Shown piece after piece: positions 10,287 through 19,600 of a stretch of 32,874 nucleotides of DNA. Position 1 is the first letter of the stretch; each line of letters starts with the position of its first letter. The notes under the pieces were generated by a model. The model saw only the letters and a list, made by a program, of their open reading frames with translations, searched no databases and had not been told where the DNA came from. The stretch comes from a virus. Location of the stretch: the IMG/VR virus record IMGVR_UViG_3300041016_001238, positions 1-32,874 of that record, one strand, 5' to 3'. Position numbers and translations under genes: made by a program.

Positions 10287-11801
10287 ATGAAAGACCTTCT
10301 TGCCCCCAAACAATTAGAATTTGTCCTAAATGCCCAAGCTAAATGGAATATAGCGCATGGTTCTGTACGTTCTAGCAAGACTGTATGCACCCTGTTTGCT
10401 TTTATGATGGAAGCTTCTAAATGCCCAGACAGCCAAATATTTATGGTAGGACATACTAGTGATACAATCTATCAGAATGCTGTTAGGTTACTGCTAGAAT
10501 CACCTCTATTCTCTATATTTAAGCCATATTGCACATGGTATTCAGGGAAAAGACAACTGAAGTTTAAAGATAAAACGATATGCACGTTAGGTGCCAAAGA
10601 CGATGGTGCGATTGGTCAATTTCAAGGGAAAACTATGTCTTTAGTCTATTGCGACGAGATGACTTTATATCCGGATGCAATTATAGACATGATTGATACT
10701 CGCTTATCTAATGCGTGGAGTATGGGTTTTGCTAGCATGAACCCTAGCCATCCAACTCATAAACTCAAACAATGGATAGATAAATCCGAAACTAATGATC
10801 CAAACTATTATGCTCTACATTTTACATTGGATGACAATCCTTATGTTGATGAGGCTTACAAACAACGCATAAGAGATTCTCTTTCGGGGCTATTTTATAA
10901 GAGAAATTATCTCGGTTTATGGTGCCTGGCAGAAGGTGCTATTTTTGACTTCTTTGACAGAAAGATACATGTGGTGCGTAAACCACCTTGTGCCGCTGAG
11001 TATTGGATTGCTGCTATCGACTATGGAACAGTTAATCCGTTCTGTTGTCTGATTATAGGTGTGTCAACAGGAAAGTATACTCAAACAGGAAAGCGTCTGT
11101 GGGTAGAGAAAGAGTTCTACTGGGATCCCAAAGCTCAAGGTAGGCAGAAGACAAACTCAGAGTTCGCAGATTGTGTGCAAGAGTTTATAGAACCCTACTC
11201 AATTAAGAGTCTTTACCTTGATCCATCTGCAGAAGCGTTCCAACTTGAACTCCGTCGCAGAGGTATCCACGTTGTTCATGCTAACAACGCCGTAGAAGAT
11301 GGTATACAGATGATGACTAGCGAGATGAAGAAAGGCAACCTTTATGTTTGCGAAGAGTGTGTGAACACCATTAGGGAGATAGAGAGCTATGTATGGGACC
11401 CTAAAGCTGCTCAAAGGGGTGATGATATACCCATGAAGAAAGATGACCACGCATGTGTGGTTGGGGATACGGTTATACAATTAGAAGATGGCGAGTATTA
11501 TGTGGGAGAACTTGCCGGTATAATAGATTGGAACAAAAACAATCCTAACTATGAAAAAATACCAAAGATTCTTAACTACAATCTGGATCAGAAAGAAATA
11601 CAACTGGATTCCGTTTTAGATGCTGGCATGACAAGATTGAATGCTGATATTTGGGAATTAGAATTAGAAGACGGAAAAATTCTACAAGCTACGGGTGATC
11701 ATAAAATAATGACCCAAAGAGGATATATCGAATTGCAACAATTGACTCTATCCGATATGATAATGGTATGCAACTCACCGATGAGAAAAGAGAATGGTTA
11801 A
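10287..11801 (+). CDS. terL: Terminase large subunit, N-terminal part fused to N-intein half
   Basis: Residues 1-389 are a PBSX-type large terminase. ATPase: Walker A Gly-Ser-Val-Arg-Ser-Ser-Lys-Thr (25-32), Walker B ending Asp123-Glu124, coupling motif Ala-Ser-Met-Asn-Pro (about 150). Nuclease: Asp245 in Ala-Ile-Asp-Tyr-Gly, Asp312 in Leu-Asp-Pro-Ser-Ala, and the start of the third acidic motif Asp-Asp-His-Ala. There the intein begins: Cys390-Val-Val-Gly-Asp-Thr-Val (block A), with block B Thr469-Gly-Asp-His472. It stops at 504 after 115 intein residues. The missing final 35 terminase residues are on 12000-12224 in the same frame. Together they give a 424-residue terminase, normal for the family. 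The motor packages DNA into the prohead through the portal. Confidence 0.93.
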   Translation: MKDLLAPKQLEFVLNAQAKWNIAHGSVRSSKTVCTLFAFMMEASKCPDSQIFMVGHTSDTIYQNAVRLLLESPLFSIFKPYCTWYSGKRQLKFKDKTICTLGAKDDGAIGQFQGKTMSLVYCDEMTLYPDAIIDMIDTRLSNAWSMGFASMNPSHPTHKLKQWIDKSETNDPNYYALHFTLDDNPYVDEAYKQRIRDSLSGLFYKRNYLGLWCLAEGAIFDFFDRKIHVVRKPPCAAEYWIAAIDYGTVNPFCCLIIGVSTGKYTQTGKRLWVEKEFYWDPKAQGRQKTNSEFADCVQEFIEPYSIKSLYLDPSAEAFQLELRRRGIHVVHANNAVEDGIQMMTSEMKKGNLYVCEECVNTIREIESYVWDPKAAQRGDDIPMKKDDHACVVGDTVIQLEDGEYYVGELAGIIDWNKNNPNYEKIPKILNYNLDQKEIQLDSVLDAGMTRLNADIWELELEDGKILQATGDHKIMTQRGYIELQQLTLSDMIMVCNSPMRKENG

Positions 11802-12116
11802 GACAATGGATGGAGGTTATCCGTCCTATGACTAAAGAATGGCATTCTAGTGAAGAAGGGATGGAATGGCACCGTAAACATGGAATTGAATGTTGGAAGT
11901 CTAAGAAAGAAATAACCATAAAGTGTAAGGAATGCGGAAAAGAGGCCATTACAAAGGTTTATCATCAGAAATTCTGTCACGCAAATTGCAAGGCTAAATA
12001 TGGACGTAGAATACGTAAAAATAAAATCAGTTAAAAGACTTGGTGAGAAAGCAAATGTATACTGTTTGACTACAAACAACGGTAACTTTGTTGCTAATGG
12101 CATAGTTGTCAAGAAC
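11454..12116 (+). mobile_element. Split intein in terL with an embedded homing-nuclease ORF
   Basis: N-half 11454-11801 (115 codons from Cys1), C-half 12000-12116 (39 codons ending Lys-Asn, followed by Cys+1). The two halves total about 154 residues, the size of a mini-intein, and the break is at the usual site between the B and F blocks. The C-half has its own ATG and AAGG six bases before it. Between them an ORF in the -1 frame encodes a zinc-finger protein of the kind found in inteins. Block F is atypical: Cys22 where Asp is common, no His before the Asn-Phe, and Lys instead of the usual His next to the final Asn. Splicing would therefore need testing. Confidence 0.85.
11768..12034 (+). 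CDS. Intein-embedded homing-endonuclease-like zinc-finger protein
   Basis: 88 residues, in a different frame from both flanking intein halves. It overlaps the N-half end by 34 bases and the C-half start by 35. It has an N-terminal helical Trp-rich part (Glu-Trp-His-Ser-Ser-Glu-Glu-Gly-Met-Glu-Trp-His, about 25-36) and a C-terminal zinc finger Cys-Lys-Glu-Cys ... Phe-Cys-His-Ala-Asn-Cys (about 53-75). The same pair of segments occurs inside contiguous phage inteins that carry HNH-type nuclease modules (from memory). A complete His-Asn-His catalytic core is not evident, so it may be an accessory DNA-binding module or a remnant. The frame was open without a stop from 11705. Confidence 0.65.
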   Translation: MQLTDEKREWLRQWMEVIRPMTKEWHSSEEGMEWHRKHGIECWKSKKEITIKCKECGKEAITKVYHQKFCHANCKAKYGRRIRKNKIS

Positions 12117-12224
12117 TGTGATGCCCTACGTTACGCAATTTTTAGTCATAAAGTAACTAAATATGAACCATACAAACATTCCCCAGATGAATACAAAAAT
12201 AATAGATTTGGAGGATTTCGTTAA
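12000..12224 (+). CDS. terL: C-intein half fused to the terminase large subunit C-terminus
   Basis: 74 residues. 1-39 are the C-terminal intein half (Val-Tyr-Cys-Leu-Thr, then Asn-Phe-Val-Ala-Asn-Gly-Ile-Val-Val-Lys-Asn39). 40-74 are the end of the terminase, starting Cys40-Asp-Ala-Leu-Arg-Tyr-Ala, which completes the catalytic motif Asp-His-Ala|Cys-Asp-Ala-Leu-Arg-Tyr begun at 11445. Without splicing, the N-terminal product lacks the third nuclease carboxylate and the last 35 residues. The start ATG is inside the 3' end of the zinc-finger ORF with an AAGG six bases upstream; the nearest in-frame stop upstream is at 11919. A good ribosome site argues for deliberate separate translation. Confidence 0.88.
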   Translation: MDVEYVKIKSVKRLGEKANVYCLTTNNGNFVANGIVVKNCDALRYAIFSHKVTKYEPYKHSPDEYKNNRFGGFR

Positions 12225-16589: not shown

Positions 16590-17108
16590 TTATTTATGAA
16601 ATCTAGTGCTTCTTCTATTATTTGCTTGTTGAATTCTATTTGCCCAACGACAATTTTGTTTGCAATAATTTCTATCATTATCAATGCGATCAAGTTGCAT
16701 TCCTTCCGGACGTTCACCCATGTCCGATAGAAATTCTGAAAAATCATTCCATTCTTCACATACTTTTATTCCACGACCTCCATAATCAGAAAATTGACGG
16801 TCATTAAAATCATTGCATCTTTGTCTCATTGCCACCCAAATTGAATATATCCTATCTCTGCCCTTTGTCCTAGATGCACATCCATGTTTATAGGCATAAT
16901 GATCGGTACCCTTTTTAGTATTTTTCTTAGCGGAACAACTTTTACAAGGACGATTTTGTGTTCGTAAATATGAACCATTTAACATAACTACATCTCCACA
17001 ATCACATTGGACTTTGTAAATTATGTAACCATTTTTCCTTTCTGGCATTTGTTCAATTATCCTTCTGGTACCAAATCTCGTTCCAATAAGTAAATCTTTT
17101 CTATACAT
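16590..17108 (-). CDS. Free-standing HNH homing endonuclease
   Basis: 172 residues from ATG 17108, which has GGAA eight bases upstream (the frame extends further to 17147). It is a phage HNH homing endonuclease: an N-terminal small domain with Cys-Asp-Cys-Gly and Cys-Lys-Ser-Cys pairs (zinc site, about 37-60), then Tyr-Ser-Ile-Trp ... Arg-Cys-Asn (about 87-100), Tyr-Gly-Gly-Arg-Gly-Ile-Lys-Val-Cys-Glu-Glu-Trp, and the ββα-metal core Gln-Leu-Asp-Arg-Ile-Asp-Asn-Asp-Arg-Asn-Tyr ... Asn-Cys-Arg-Trp-Ala (about 137-157). It sits on the minus strand between scaffold and coat, 185 bases before exon 1 of the intron-split coat gene. It is a likely partner of the endonuclease-less intron 1. Confidence 0.88.
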   Translation of the reverse strand: MYRKDLLIGTRFGTRRIIEQMPERKNGYIIYKVQCDCGDVVMLNGSYLRTQNRPCKSCSAKKNTKKGTDHYAYKHGCASRTKGRDRIYSIWVAMRQRCNDFNDRQFSDYGGRGIKVCEEWNDFSEFLSDMGERPEGMQLDRIDNDRNYCKQNCRWANRIQQANNRRSTRFHK

Positions 17109-17293
17109 AAATAATTTCCATGCTATATTTAAGATACGCACGCACAAGCGTTATGTGCATAAAGATCTATCTAGCTAATAGATCATCGCGTAAGAAGGAT
17201 CGCATCTTCGTCCGATATGATCGAGAACCGACGTAGTTAGGCTCGTCAACCGATCATCATATCATTGTTTAACGACAATAAGAGGATTTTCTC

Positions 17294-17386
17294 ATGTCGA
17301 TTACAACAACCGGTAATCTTGGGCCGATGATATTACAAAGTCTTGCACCCGCAATGCTTTATGTGCCGACCCCCACAATGAACTAT
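17294..17386 (+). CDS. Major capsid protein, exon 1
   Basis: Codes for residues 1-31, starting at ATG 17294 with AGGA eight bases upstream. The start Met-Ser-Ile-Thr-Thr-Thr-Gly-Asn-Leu and Val-Pro-Thr-Pro-Thr-Met-Asn-Tyr are typical of the N-terminus of N4 gp56/P22-like coat proteins. Without splicing the frame stops at 17399 after 35 codons. The exon ends at AAC TAT (17381-17386), where intron 1 begins; the last T pairs with G of the guide (U-G at the 5' splice site). A 145-base leader (17149-17293) with several small hairpins lies before the ATG. Confidence 0.85.
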
Positions 17387-17628
17387 AAACCATTTGCATA
17401 ATACAATGCAATATGTAGTTCTAAAACCTTTCCTGATTGACTCGGAAACCTAAAGCGAAAGCCATGGCAACGAGGGGCAAGTTTAAATACAGCCTGAACG
17501 ACTGAGCGGAAGGGCCCGTAAGGGATGCAACAGTCTGAGCAACGAACGAAAGTCGTTGAGGTTGATCCGAAGAGGTTGACCCGCCATATTGCCTTAATTG
17601 ACAAAATGGTCATAAAAGTAACAGTATG
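17387..17628 (+). ncRNA. Group I intron 1 in the major capsid gene (no ORF)
   Basis: 242 bases. P1 forms between exon AACTAT (17381-17386) and guide GTAGTT (17415-17420), with an extra hairpin TTGCAT/ATGCAA (17394-17411) inside the P1 loop. Core: P/Q-like region about 17440-17498, R-like element with GACTG (17500-17504), S-like element with CAGTC (17531-17535) pairing as P7, then a P9 hairpin CAACGA (17540-17545)/TCGTTG (17553-17558). The 3' end is placed at G17628 because this restores the coat frame and gives exactly the residue spacing of coat homologues as I recall them. It shares architecture with intron 2. Boundaries: 5' strong, 3' inferred. Confidence 0.85.
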
Positions 17629-18180
17629 ATTACAGTTTGTGACAAGGTTTCCATGCCCGCCAATGGCGGAACAACAATGCGCTTTATGAGACCAAGAGCG
17701 CTTACTCCACCTACAGTGCAGCTGGGTAACGCTGGTATTGATCCTCCAGCACAAGTGCCACAACGCGACATCATTGATGCGCAAATGGCGTTTTTTGGTA
17801 CTGGTTGCATAATTAACGAACAAGTTATTTTGCAAGATCAAGAGGGTGTACTTGCTTGGGTATCTGAACGTCTTGCCGTAGCGATGCGTCAAGCAGAGGA
17901 TTTGATCCTCCGCGACTACATCGTATCTGCAGCGTCACAGATCAATGCAGGCGGTGGTTCAAACGGCGACAATCCAACTAACCTTGGACTCTCCGACTTT
18001 AGTTTGGTAGCGACAACACTCGATACTAATAATGCTTATAAATTTATGAGCGGTATCGAGGGTATGGATCGCTTCGGCACAGGCCCTATTAGAAGTTCGT
18101 ATTTCATGCTATCTAGCACTGAACTGCAAACCGATTTTGATGGTCTTGTAGGCCAAGGTGTTCTAAACAATTGGAACTAT
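17629..18180 (+). CDS. Major capsid protein, exon 2
   Basis: Codes for residues 32-215. It contains Met-Pro-Ala-Asn-Gly-Gly-Thr-Thr-Met-Arg-Phe (40-50), Gly-Asn-Ala-Gly-Ile-Asp-Pro-Pro, Ile-Ile-Asn-Glu-Gln-Val, Gln-Ala-Glu-Asp ... Arg-Asp-Tyr-Ile-Val-Ser, Gly-Gly-Ser-Asn-Gly-Asp-Asn-Pro-Thr and Gly-x-Asp-Arg-Phe-Gly-Thr-Gly-Pro-Ile-Arg, a sequence landscape typical of HK97-fold coat proteins of the N4 gp56-like family. An ATG at 17626 straddles the intron end and is not the gene start. The exon ends Trp-Asn-Tyr at AAC TAT (18175-18180). Read on past this point, the frame stops at 18240. Confidence 0.88.
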
Positions 18181-19276
18181 CAACAATTGGGTAGTTTTAA
18201 AATCTCTGGTAATTATCAAGAACACCTACAGGCTGCATAAGCCCAAGGCAACTTGAAGGAAGAATATTAAATTGAGTTTAGATGTTTAATTTGAGTGATG
18301 AGACTATACATCCGATCGCGATCAACAATAGGACGATCAACATTTCTAATTTTTTTAGGAAATTGAATAAATTCCAAGAAAAGTTGGCATTGATCTCCCT
18401 TGATTTTCAAAAAAGGGTATATAGATTCGCAAACAAATTTTTCATAAATAGTTTTTGGCGACCATTTGAAGATAGTATTTACTGGTCTTTTGCAAGAGAC
18501 AACAGTACCAGAAATTCTATCGTTAATATGACGAATTGCTTCAGGAAATATATTTGCAACAGACAGTTGATGAGCGAATCTTTTTGCAAGAGTTTGCTTA
18601 TTGAAATGTTCATAACAAACAAAATTTCCATCTCCATCGATAAATCCCGCAAGCCATTCAAAAAAGTGGTTTTCGATTGGTTTTTTCACAGGAGGAAGAA
18701 TAGGAGTAAGGTTAAGCCAAGGTTGTTTGAATGCTTTGAGAGTACTACAAGTTATTGCTCGCGTGTCTTTTCTGTTTTTTCTAGGTTGATTGAGATAATC
18801 TTTCAATCTAAGAAGTTGAGGACGTTTTACAATGGACAAATCGGAAATAGAATCAATGAAGAAAATGGCTTGATCGGAGATAGAATTAATCTTCCAAGTC
18901 CATGTTTTCTTTCTCTTATCTCTTTTCCTAGTGTAAATACAACCTCCAAACTTTTCTTTAAAAAGATTAGGGATTGCTTCGTTTGCCATTTCAAGGGCTA
19001 TTGTAAAAGCTCCATTAGGACACAAAGAAACGTAACCTTCAGCATCAAACAGACCTGCAAAATAGTGCATAGTAAACTCAATTCGTTATGTGGCAAATTA
19101 CATTGCAACATAATTGATATTCGCCTGCAACGACTAAATCCAGGGACTCAAGGATGAATTCTTTGAGATGCCATAGTCTGAACACTATTCGAAAGGTAGT
19201 GAGGGAAGGTCGAAGAGCCATCCCCGCCATATTAATGATATGGTCAGTAGGATTAAATTCCGAAAGTAACAGCCAG
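18181..19276 (+). ncRNA. Group I intron 2 in the major capsid gene, carrying a LAGLIDADG gene
   Basis: 1096 bases. P1: exon AACTAT (18175-18180) with guide GTAGTT (18191-18196). P10: TTGG (18187-18190) with exon 3 CCAA (19277-19280). P7: GACTA (19132-19136) with TAGTC (19174-19178); the R-like element is around 19124-19140 and the S-like element, CATAGTCTGAACA, around 19172-19184. P9: CACTA/TAGTG just after. An 11-base perfect inverted repeat, AATTGAGTTTA (18270-18280) and TAAACTCAATT (19073-19083), closes a peripheral loop that holds the endonuclease gene. Both splice sites are supported by pairing and by restoration of the reading frame. Confidence 0.9.
18267..19070 (-). CDS. LAGLIDADG homing endonuclease (intron-encoded, antisense to its host gene)
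   Basis: 267 residues with two LAGLIDADG motifs: Phe-Ala-Gly-Leu-Phe-Asp-Ala-Glu-Gly (4-12) and Leu-Ala-Gly-Phe-Ile-Asp-Gly-Asp-Gly (140-148). It is therefore a monomeric double-motif enzyme, and each motif keeps its acidic metal-binding residue (Glu11, Asp147). Length is normal. The gene is on the strand opposite to the coat gene and fills the loop closed by the intron's 11-base inverted repeat, so it can be expressed without disturbing ribozyme folding. It should cut intronless coat alleles near the AACTAT/CCAACA junction to spread the intron. Confidence 0.9.
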   Translation of the reverse strand: MHYFAGLFDAEGYVSLCPNGAFTIALEMANEAIPNLFKEKFGGCIYTRKRDKRKKTWTWKINSISDQAIFFIDSISDLSIVKRPQLLRLKDYLNQPRKNRKDTRAITCSTLKAFKQPWLNLTPILPPVKKPIENHFFEWLAGFIDGDGNFVCYEHFNKQTLAKRFAHQLSVANIFPEAIRHINDRISGTVVSCKRPVNTIFKWSPKTIYEKFVCESIYPFLKIKGDQCQLFLEFIQFPKKIRNVDRPIVDRDRMYSLITQIKHLNSI

Positions 19277-19600
19277 CCAACAAATGCTTCTGCTCTTCCT
19301 AGTGAATGGGGTTCCGTATTCAACGTACGTATCCTTACAAGCTCTGAAGCTCCAGTAGCTCGTGGTGCAAGTGCTAATAGCAGCGACGTGTATTACAATA
19401 CAGTTGTTGGTAAACAAGCGATCACACATATTAATCAGGACGGCTTTAGCATGAATCTGATTTATCGTGATCCTTACTATTCTGGCATGTTGGCACAAAA
19501 TGCTACTCTTGCAGTGAAGTTTGCGCAAGCACAAGCTATTACGCAAGATACAGCTATTAGAAACCTATTAAGCACACGCTTAAGCAATTTGGGAGTATAA
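19277..19600 (+). CDS. Major capsid protein, exon 3
   Basis: Codes for residues 216-322, starting Pro-Thr-Asn-Ala-Ser-Ala-Leu-Pro-Ser-Glu-Trp-Gly-Ser-Val. The spliced junction Asn-Asn-Trp-Asn-Tyr|Pro-Thr-Asn matches the pattern of coat homologues at this point. Later Val-Gly-Lys-Gln-Ala, His-Ile-Asn-Gln-Asp-Gly-Phe-Ser, Tyr-Arg-Asp-Pro-Tyr-Tyr and Ala-Val-Lys-Phe-Ala-Gln-Ala follow the usual C-terminal order. The three exons total 969 bases (322 residues). The frame upstream of 19277 is open by chance and must not be read as coding. The next gene starts two bases after the stop. Confidence 0.88.
   Translation, partial: PTNASALPSEWGSVFNVRILTSSEAPVARGASANSSDVYYNTVVGKQAITHINQDGFSMNLIYRDPYYSGMLAQNATLAVKFAQAQAITQDTAIRNLLSTRLSNLGV

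Follow-up and report, generated by a model that had tools for sequence, protein, structure and literature searches.

Group I introns in protein genes usually come in ones and twos. In mycobacteriophage LittleE the capsid gene holds an intron with a LAGLIDADG frame on its bottom strand, and its splicing was shown by RT-PCR (PMC3706429). Two or three introns per gene are found in polymerase and terminase genes of Bastillevirinae and in Twort (PMC11878797), and exon skipping is known from Twort orf142 (PMC10136302). The capsid gene of Faustovirus E12 has many introns, five of which belong to group I (PMC6247863). Introns that lack an open reading frame may also spread by collaborative (trans) homing with a free-standing endonuclease, whose target in the published cases is the intron site (PMC3984707). 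The coat gene examined here has two introns, whereas LittleE, from another phage group, has one per capsid gene, and relatives of our gene carry more, at dozens of sites across the group. The locus resembles Twort orf142 and the Bastillevirinae in having several group I introns in one phage gene, although theirs are non-capsid genes, and Faustovirus E12 in being a many-intron virus capsid gene, although that is a eukaryotic giant virus with spliceosome-like introns as well. A literature search, with most subscription journals outside its coverage, found no phage coat gene colonised this densely. We think it highly probable that the two introns were acquired independently, that both would have to splice for coat protein to be made, and that they spread by homing (intron 2, with a LAGLIDADG gene) and by collaborative homing (intron 1, with an HNH gene).

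The source is a virus record, and the window, meaning the whole stretch of 32,874 nt (32.9 kb) that was analysed, carries a terminase gene, a P22-like portal gene (Pfam E 1.5e-52) and the coat gene. The terminase large subunit (10287-12224) has a broken-up intein of its own. Its N half forms the end of an ORF at 10287-11801 (Pfam Intein_splicing E 8.5e-7) and its C half the start of an ORF at 12000-12224 (E 8.1e-8), in the same frame with stops between, while a small HNH-like ORF at 11768-12034 (PHROG 15471 E 1.3e-7) overlaps both of its neighbours; the element resembles a split intein between whose halves an endonuclease gene lies. The features in and around the coat gene are as follows.

16590-17147, minus strand: free-standing HNH endonuclease gene just 5' of the coat gene, candidate partner of intron 1 (PHROG 374 E 1.4e-48)
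17294-17386, plus strand: coat exon 1, 31 codons, last bases AACTAT (empty sites in relatives, spliced alignment)
17387-17628, plus strand: group I intron 1, 242 nt, lacking an endonuclease gene (covariance model, 173 bits; same-site homologues L070 and L075)
17415-17420, plus strand: guide GTAGTT of intron 1, pairs with AACTAT at 17381-17386 (sequence)
17427-17433, plus strand: 5' strand of P3 in intron 1, pairs with 17508-17514 (covariation in relatives)
17500-17504, plus strand: 5' strand of P7 in intron 1, GACTG, pairs with CAGTC at 17531-17535 (family core model)
17629-18180, plus strand: coat exon 2, 184 codons, last bases AACTAT (same basis as exons 1 and 3)
18181-19276, plus strand: group I intron 2, 1096 nt, P6 enlarged by an insertion (covariance model; same-site homologues L117, L167 and L171)
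18191-18196, plus strand: guide GTAGTT of intron 2, pairs with AACTAT at 18175-18180 (sequence)
18238-18240, plus strand: TAA in the P5 loop of intron 2, first stop of the exon 2 frame (sequence; family pattern)
18267-19070, minus strand: two-motif LAGLIDADG endonuclease gene, 267 aa, in P6 of intron 2 (Pfam PF00961 E 1.9e-7; PHROG 5046 E 8e-24)
18282-19157, plus strand: sense frame of intron 2, free of stops over the endonuclease region and the R strand (frame analysis)
19128-19183, plus strand: P7/P3/P8 region of intron 2, R strand from 19128, S strand at 19167-19183 (core pattern, covariance model)
19277-19600, plus strand: coat exon 3, 107 codons plus stop (empty sites in relatives, spliced alignment)

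Joining 17294-17386, 17629-18180 and 19277-19600 yields 969 nt in a single frame of 322 residues plus stop, and the joined protein matches the PHROG major head family (E 3.8e-15). The viral collection holds 235 relatives of the coat gene, and in 70 of the first 80, which were fetched, the coat frame is intact without the introns. Their junctions, MNY/I and WNY/P, fall precisely at 17386/17629 and 18180/19277, and an independent spliced alignment that used protein only placed the introns at 17387-17628 and 18181-19276, exact to the base. A tblastn search with the coat protein found nothing among named phages, and the six genome contigs that did match it are metagenome bins assigned to unrelated phyla. 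The intact relatives and the spliced alignment thus bear out the original prediction that removing the two segments restores a 322-residue frame, and also that both introns sit in phase 0 after Asn-Tyr codons. Its further claim, that coat protein depends on removal of both, is likewise supported.

Rfam scans, both at the gathering threshold and at E 10, missed the two introns. RF00028 gave 18.3 bits (E 3.7e-4) for intron 2 and nothing for intron 1, against a cut-off of 50 bits that is an annotation threshold and does not define the group I class. The general Rfam model is too insensitive for this intron family. Because the scans missed the introns, a family covariance model was made from 18 relatives instead, with the window left out, and it detects both: intron 1 scores 173 bits (E 4.9e-46), intron 2 scores 61.5 bits (E 1.1e-15, match at 18997-19276). 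The structure in the 18 relatives comprises P3, P4, P5, P6, P7, P8, P9 and P9.1 with 94.3% of cells paired; 31 of its 41 pairs have changed on both sides, and slid partners pair in only 39-46%. P3 and P7 are both 100% paired, all seven P3 pairs have changed on both sides among the relatives, and P3 crosses P7. Crossing of P3 and P7 is a hallmark of group I introns. Each intron has a terminal U.G pair at its 5' splice site and ends in G. Core covariation and the window-free model therefore place both introns in group I, as had been proposed together with AACTAT before each 5' splice site and GTAGTT guides with a terminal U-G pair, which the sequence confirms; the covariance model search suggested as a check accordingly finds both with the family model, with RF00028 staying below its cut-off.

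As homing introns do, intron 2 contains a frame for a homing endonuclease, here on the minus strand. The gene is conserved in L117 and L171, and the introns at the same site in L117, L167 and L171, in which the LAGLIDADG relatives were located by a P7 pattern, have the same core and the same antisense gene, the latter 45% identical to that of the window. Their host coat genes are only 37-44% identical to ours; kin with the same enzyme gene at the same site in coat genes this distant make intron 2 an old resident, and we infer that it is a homing intron long settled after residue 215. A scan of viral contigs with the window's LAGLIDADG protein gave no match. Sigma-70 promoter-like sites near the coat gene are no commoner than in shuffled sequence, so no promoter is claimed for the antisense gene. 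Single-motif LAGLIDADG genes of about 150-190 aa also lie antisense in P6 in L108, L113, L120, L137, L141 and L168, and antisense placement appears to be usual for such genes in this intron family.

Intron 1 has no enzyme gene of its own, but is linked to the free-standing HNH gene next to it, the arrangement of a collaborative homing pair. The closest copies of that gene (74%) have the corresponding position in L070 and L075, the two further phages in which the residue-31 intron was seen, and more distant copies (38-49%) go with introns at residues 10, 21 and 28. Among coat genes with enough upstream sequence, an early intron (within the first 31 codons) is present in all seven that have an upstream HNH gene, and the HNH gene in none of 96 that lack an early intron (Fisher p 1.9e-7, an optimistic value given the ancestry shared among genomes). 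Confinement of the HNH gene to coat genes with early introns is what collaborative homing predicts (PMC3984707), and the likeness to that system here would consist in an enzyme-less intron adjoining an endonuclease gene that tracks its presence. We conclude that intron 1 probably spread by collaborative homing with the adjoining HNH gene.

Introns are dense throughout the coat genes of this phage group, with at least one in 50 of 78 full-length genes from a sample ranked by exon 3 only. Counting only introns with a guide of at least six pairs and a TAAC or TAAT 3' end, 117 distinct introns across all loci occupy 45 sites, or 36 if guides more than 60 nt from the intron start are excluded; among the automatic calls, those near residues 88-104 are partly split or spurious, and a few rare sites are doubtful too. 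L151 has six predicted introns, four of which pass the guide and 3'-end test. When 40 phage records were searched with the intron model, 60 of 67 matches lay inside the coat gene, which makes up 64 kb of about 1.5 Mb in these records. The nearest relative of an intron sits at the same site for 34 of 101 introns, compared with 3.8 in permutations (maximum 13), as site-specific homing would predict, and in the same gene for four (p 0.018). Elsewhere, introns of the intron 1 family occur in portal genes of related phages (L085:2433-2638 and L092:10971-11180), near NQSNIDT, 9 nt apart and with different guides, and a related intron with one and the same guide occupies one site of a tape-measure-like gene in L083, L087, L090, L091, L093 and L096, which are other phages or prophages from isolate genomes. 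In L167, the introns at residues 104, 181 and 215 of the coat gene belong to different lineages and have the same 27-nt stretch of P9.1 (GAGGATGGGCCGAAGAGCCTGTCCCGC), suggesting that introns within a gene recombine or undergo conversion.

Taken together, the exons, junctions, group I fold, ancestry and HNH association found by sequence comparison suggest the following course of splicing, homing and enzyme cleavage. Each ribozyme would pair its GTAGTT guide with the exon's AACTAT, and at both introns a guanosine-started cut after AACTAT would be followed by exon joining, so that both must splice to give the 322-residue coat protein. The antisense LAGLIDADG enzyme presumably cuts intron-free alleles after residue 215, and enzyme-less intron 1 probably spread through the neighbouring HNH gene. 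The family as a whole would have colonised coat genes at many sites, with the guide of each copy matched to its site.

The original prediction went further and derived one intron from the other, through reverse splicing or through homing to a matching hexamer. The shared hexamer, the identical guide and the common intron family speak for such a step, and L151, in which the introns at residues 60 and 144 have near-identical cores with different guides and different P6 contents, indicates that copying within a gene to a new site with a retargeted guide does occur in this family, though not for the window pair. The cores of introns 1 and 2 are only 57% identical and neither is nearest to the other, intron 2 ranking 76th of 106 relatives of intron 1 and intron 1 30th for intron 2. 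Forcing the two into one clade makes the best tree 66.8 log units worse (AU p 0.026, about 200 columns), and intron 2 instead joins the site-215 introns of L117 and L167 (support 100/95), its same-site kin with the same endonuclease gene in distant coat genes. Intron 1 falls, on a long end branch, with coat introns at residues 28, 31, 35 and 98 and with portal introns (88/85), a group of introns without enzyme genes in other coat and portal genes. The hexamer match itself is close to chance, as the last six exon bases agree in one of 51 intron pairs from the same gene when 0.44 is expected, and in 0.86% of unrelated intron pairs. Of the relatives, 23 of 78 already have AACTAT at site 1 and 30 of 80 have it at site 2, and nearly all keep Asn-Tyr at both sites; the hexamer is common to both sites because both encode this conserved pair, and the guides are identical because their targets are, which is no evidence of common descent. 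A sibling origin is hence very improbable, and the introns appear to have been acquired independently from different lineages. Of the earlier interpretation, group I membership, splice sites, phase and coat dependence stand, and the descent of one intron from the other does not.

Three further readings concern how the introns behave now and how intron 1 arrived. That they are degenerate and no longer splice, with the coat gene dead here or its protein made from another copy, might be entertained for a record that is a metagenomic fragment, but the exons keep an open frame with 90-95% identity to intact relatives, conserved pairs persist in both ribozyme cores and the ORF list has no second coat gene, which leaves this reading scarcely credible. 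Skipping of exon 2 in some transcripts would join exons 1 and 3 in frame into a 138-residue protein. Both introns are in phase 0 with identical guides that fit either 5' splice site, and skipping is known both in Twort orf142 and in engineered tandem introns with identical P1 (PMC10136302). However, the reported skipped exons are only 23 and 34 nt long against 552 nt for exon 2, and the predicted product would be without most of the coat fold, and we regard such skipping as unlikely. Somewhat less doubtful is that the upstream HNH gene was a passenger, inherited along with intron 1 and with no part in its spread, since the genes are linked in related genomes and eight coat genes with early introns have no upstream HNH gene. 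Against this, HNH copies lie beside introns at four early sites (10, 21, 28 and 31) in divergent genomes, and none of the 96 genes lacking an early intron has one. We therefore favour independent acquisition, with splicing of both introns and collaborative homing of intron 1.

The introns also share a layout with respect to translation. It has been proposed that in-frame stops near the start of a phage intron allow its ribozyme to fold (PMC3984707); in this family the stop has a fixed structural place. In 57% of introns the frame continuing from the upstream exon first runs into a stop in the P5 loop, compared with 5-6% for the other frames. Long introns have this P5 stop in 48 of 59 cases, compact introns in 10 of 42. 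The leading intron segment varies in length with the codon phase of the insertion; as a result, 26 of 36 sites lead into the same intron frame (p 2.6e-6 against one third, with sites not fully independent), as do 8 of the 12 sites outside phase 0 (p 0.026). Downstream of the P5 stop, intron ORFs begin at an ATG after the ribozyme's AAGGGGCAAG, read one fixed frame through the R strand (QPERLNP...DAIV) and stop in the P7 strand; in that frame 17 of 31 insertions lack stops over their whole length, compared with 1 and 3 in the others. In three antisense endonuclease genes, the codons TTA, CTA and TCA, each of which would place a stop on the sense strand, account for 8 of 120 Leu and Ser codons, compared with 34% in the phage; other codons ending in A keep their usual frequency (53% versus 48%; Fisher 4e-23 within these genes). 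The sense frame of intron 2 was considered as a real protein and rejected, having no family match and substitutions that follow the minus-strand codon pattern; frame 18282-19157 is thus probably kept open without being a selected protein. We prefer to read its openness as a sign that translation of the intron ORF would be coupled to that of the coat. More tentatively, and at a little under even chances, the family may be built for translation during folding, with ribosomes passing from the coat exon into the intron in a set frame, a stop in the P5 loop, a restart at the AUG behind AAGGGG and reading through P6 and P7, by which capsid splicing would be translation-coupled and the sense frame kept open even over an antisense endonuclease. 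Small P6 ORFs of about 50-90 aa occur in L102, L105, L109, L134, L139, L149, L156, L158, L161 and L167. They resemble neither one another nor known families, and follow the AAGGGG stretch in one fixed frame. A search of nine of them as named cargo genes gave no family match below E 0.001, and they could be cargo genes or frame fillers.

The introns belong to a known class; what sets this variant apart is their density, the linked HNH gene and the translation layout. One essential, highly expressed gene is interrupted in about two thirds of the sampled genomes, at 36-45 sites, and coat genes of this phage group are hence prone to annotation as fragments. The same-site homing lineages, the retargeted copy in L151 and the linked endonuclease make intron movement to new sites directly testable, and the system does the same for ribozyme folding within a translated mRNA. 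The coat gene of this phage group is an unusually dense natural collection of mobile introns.
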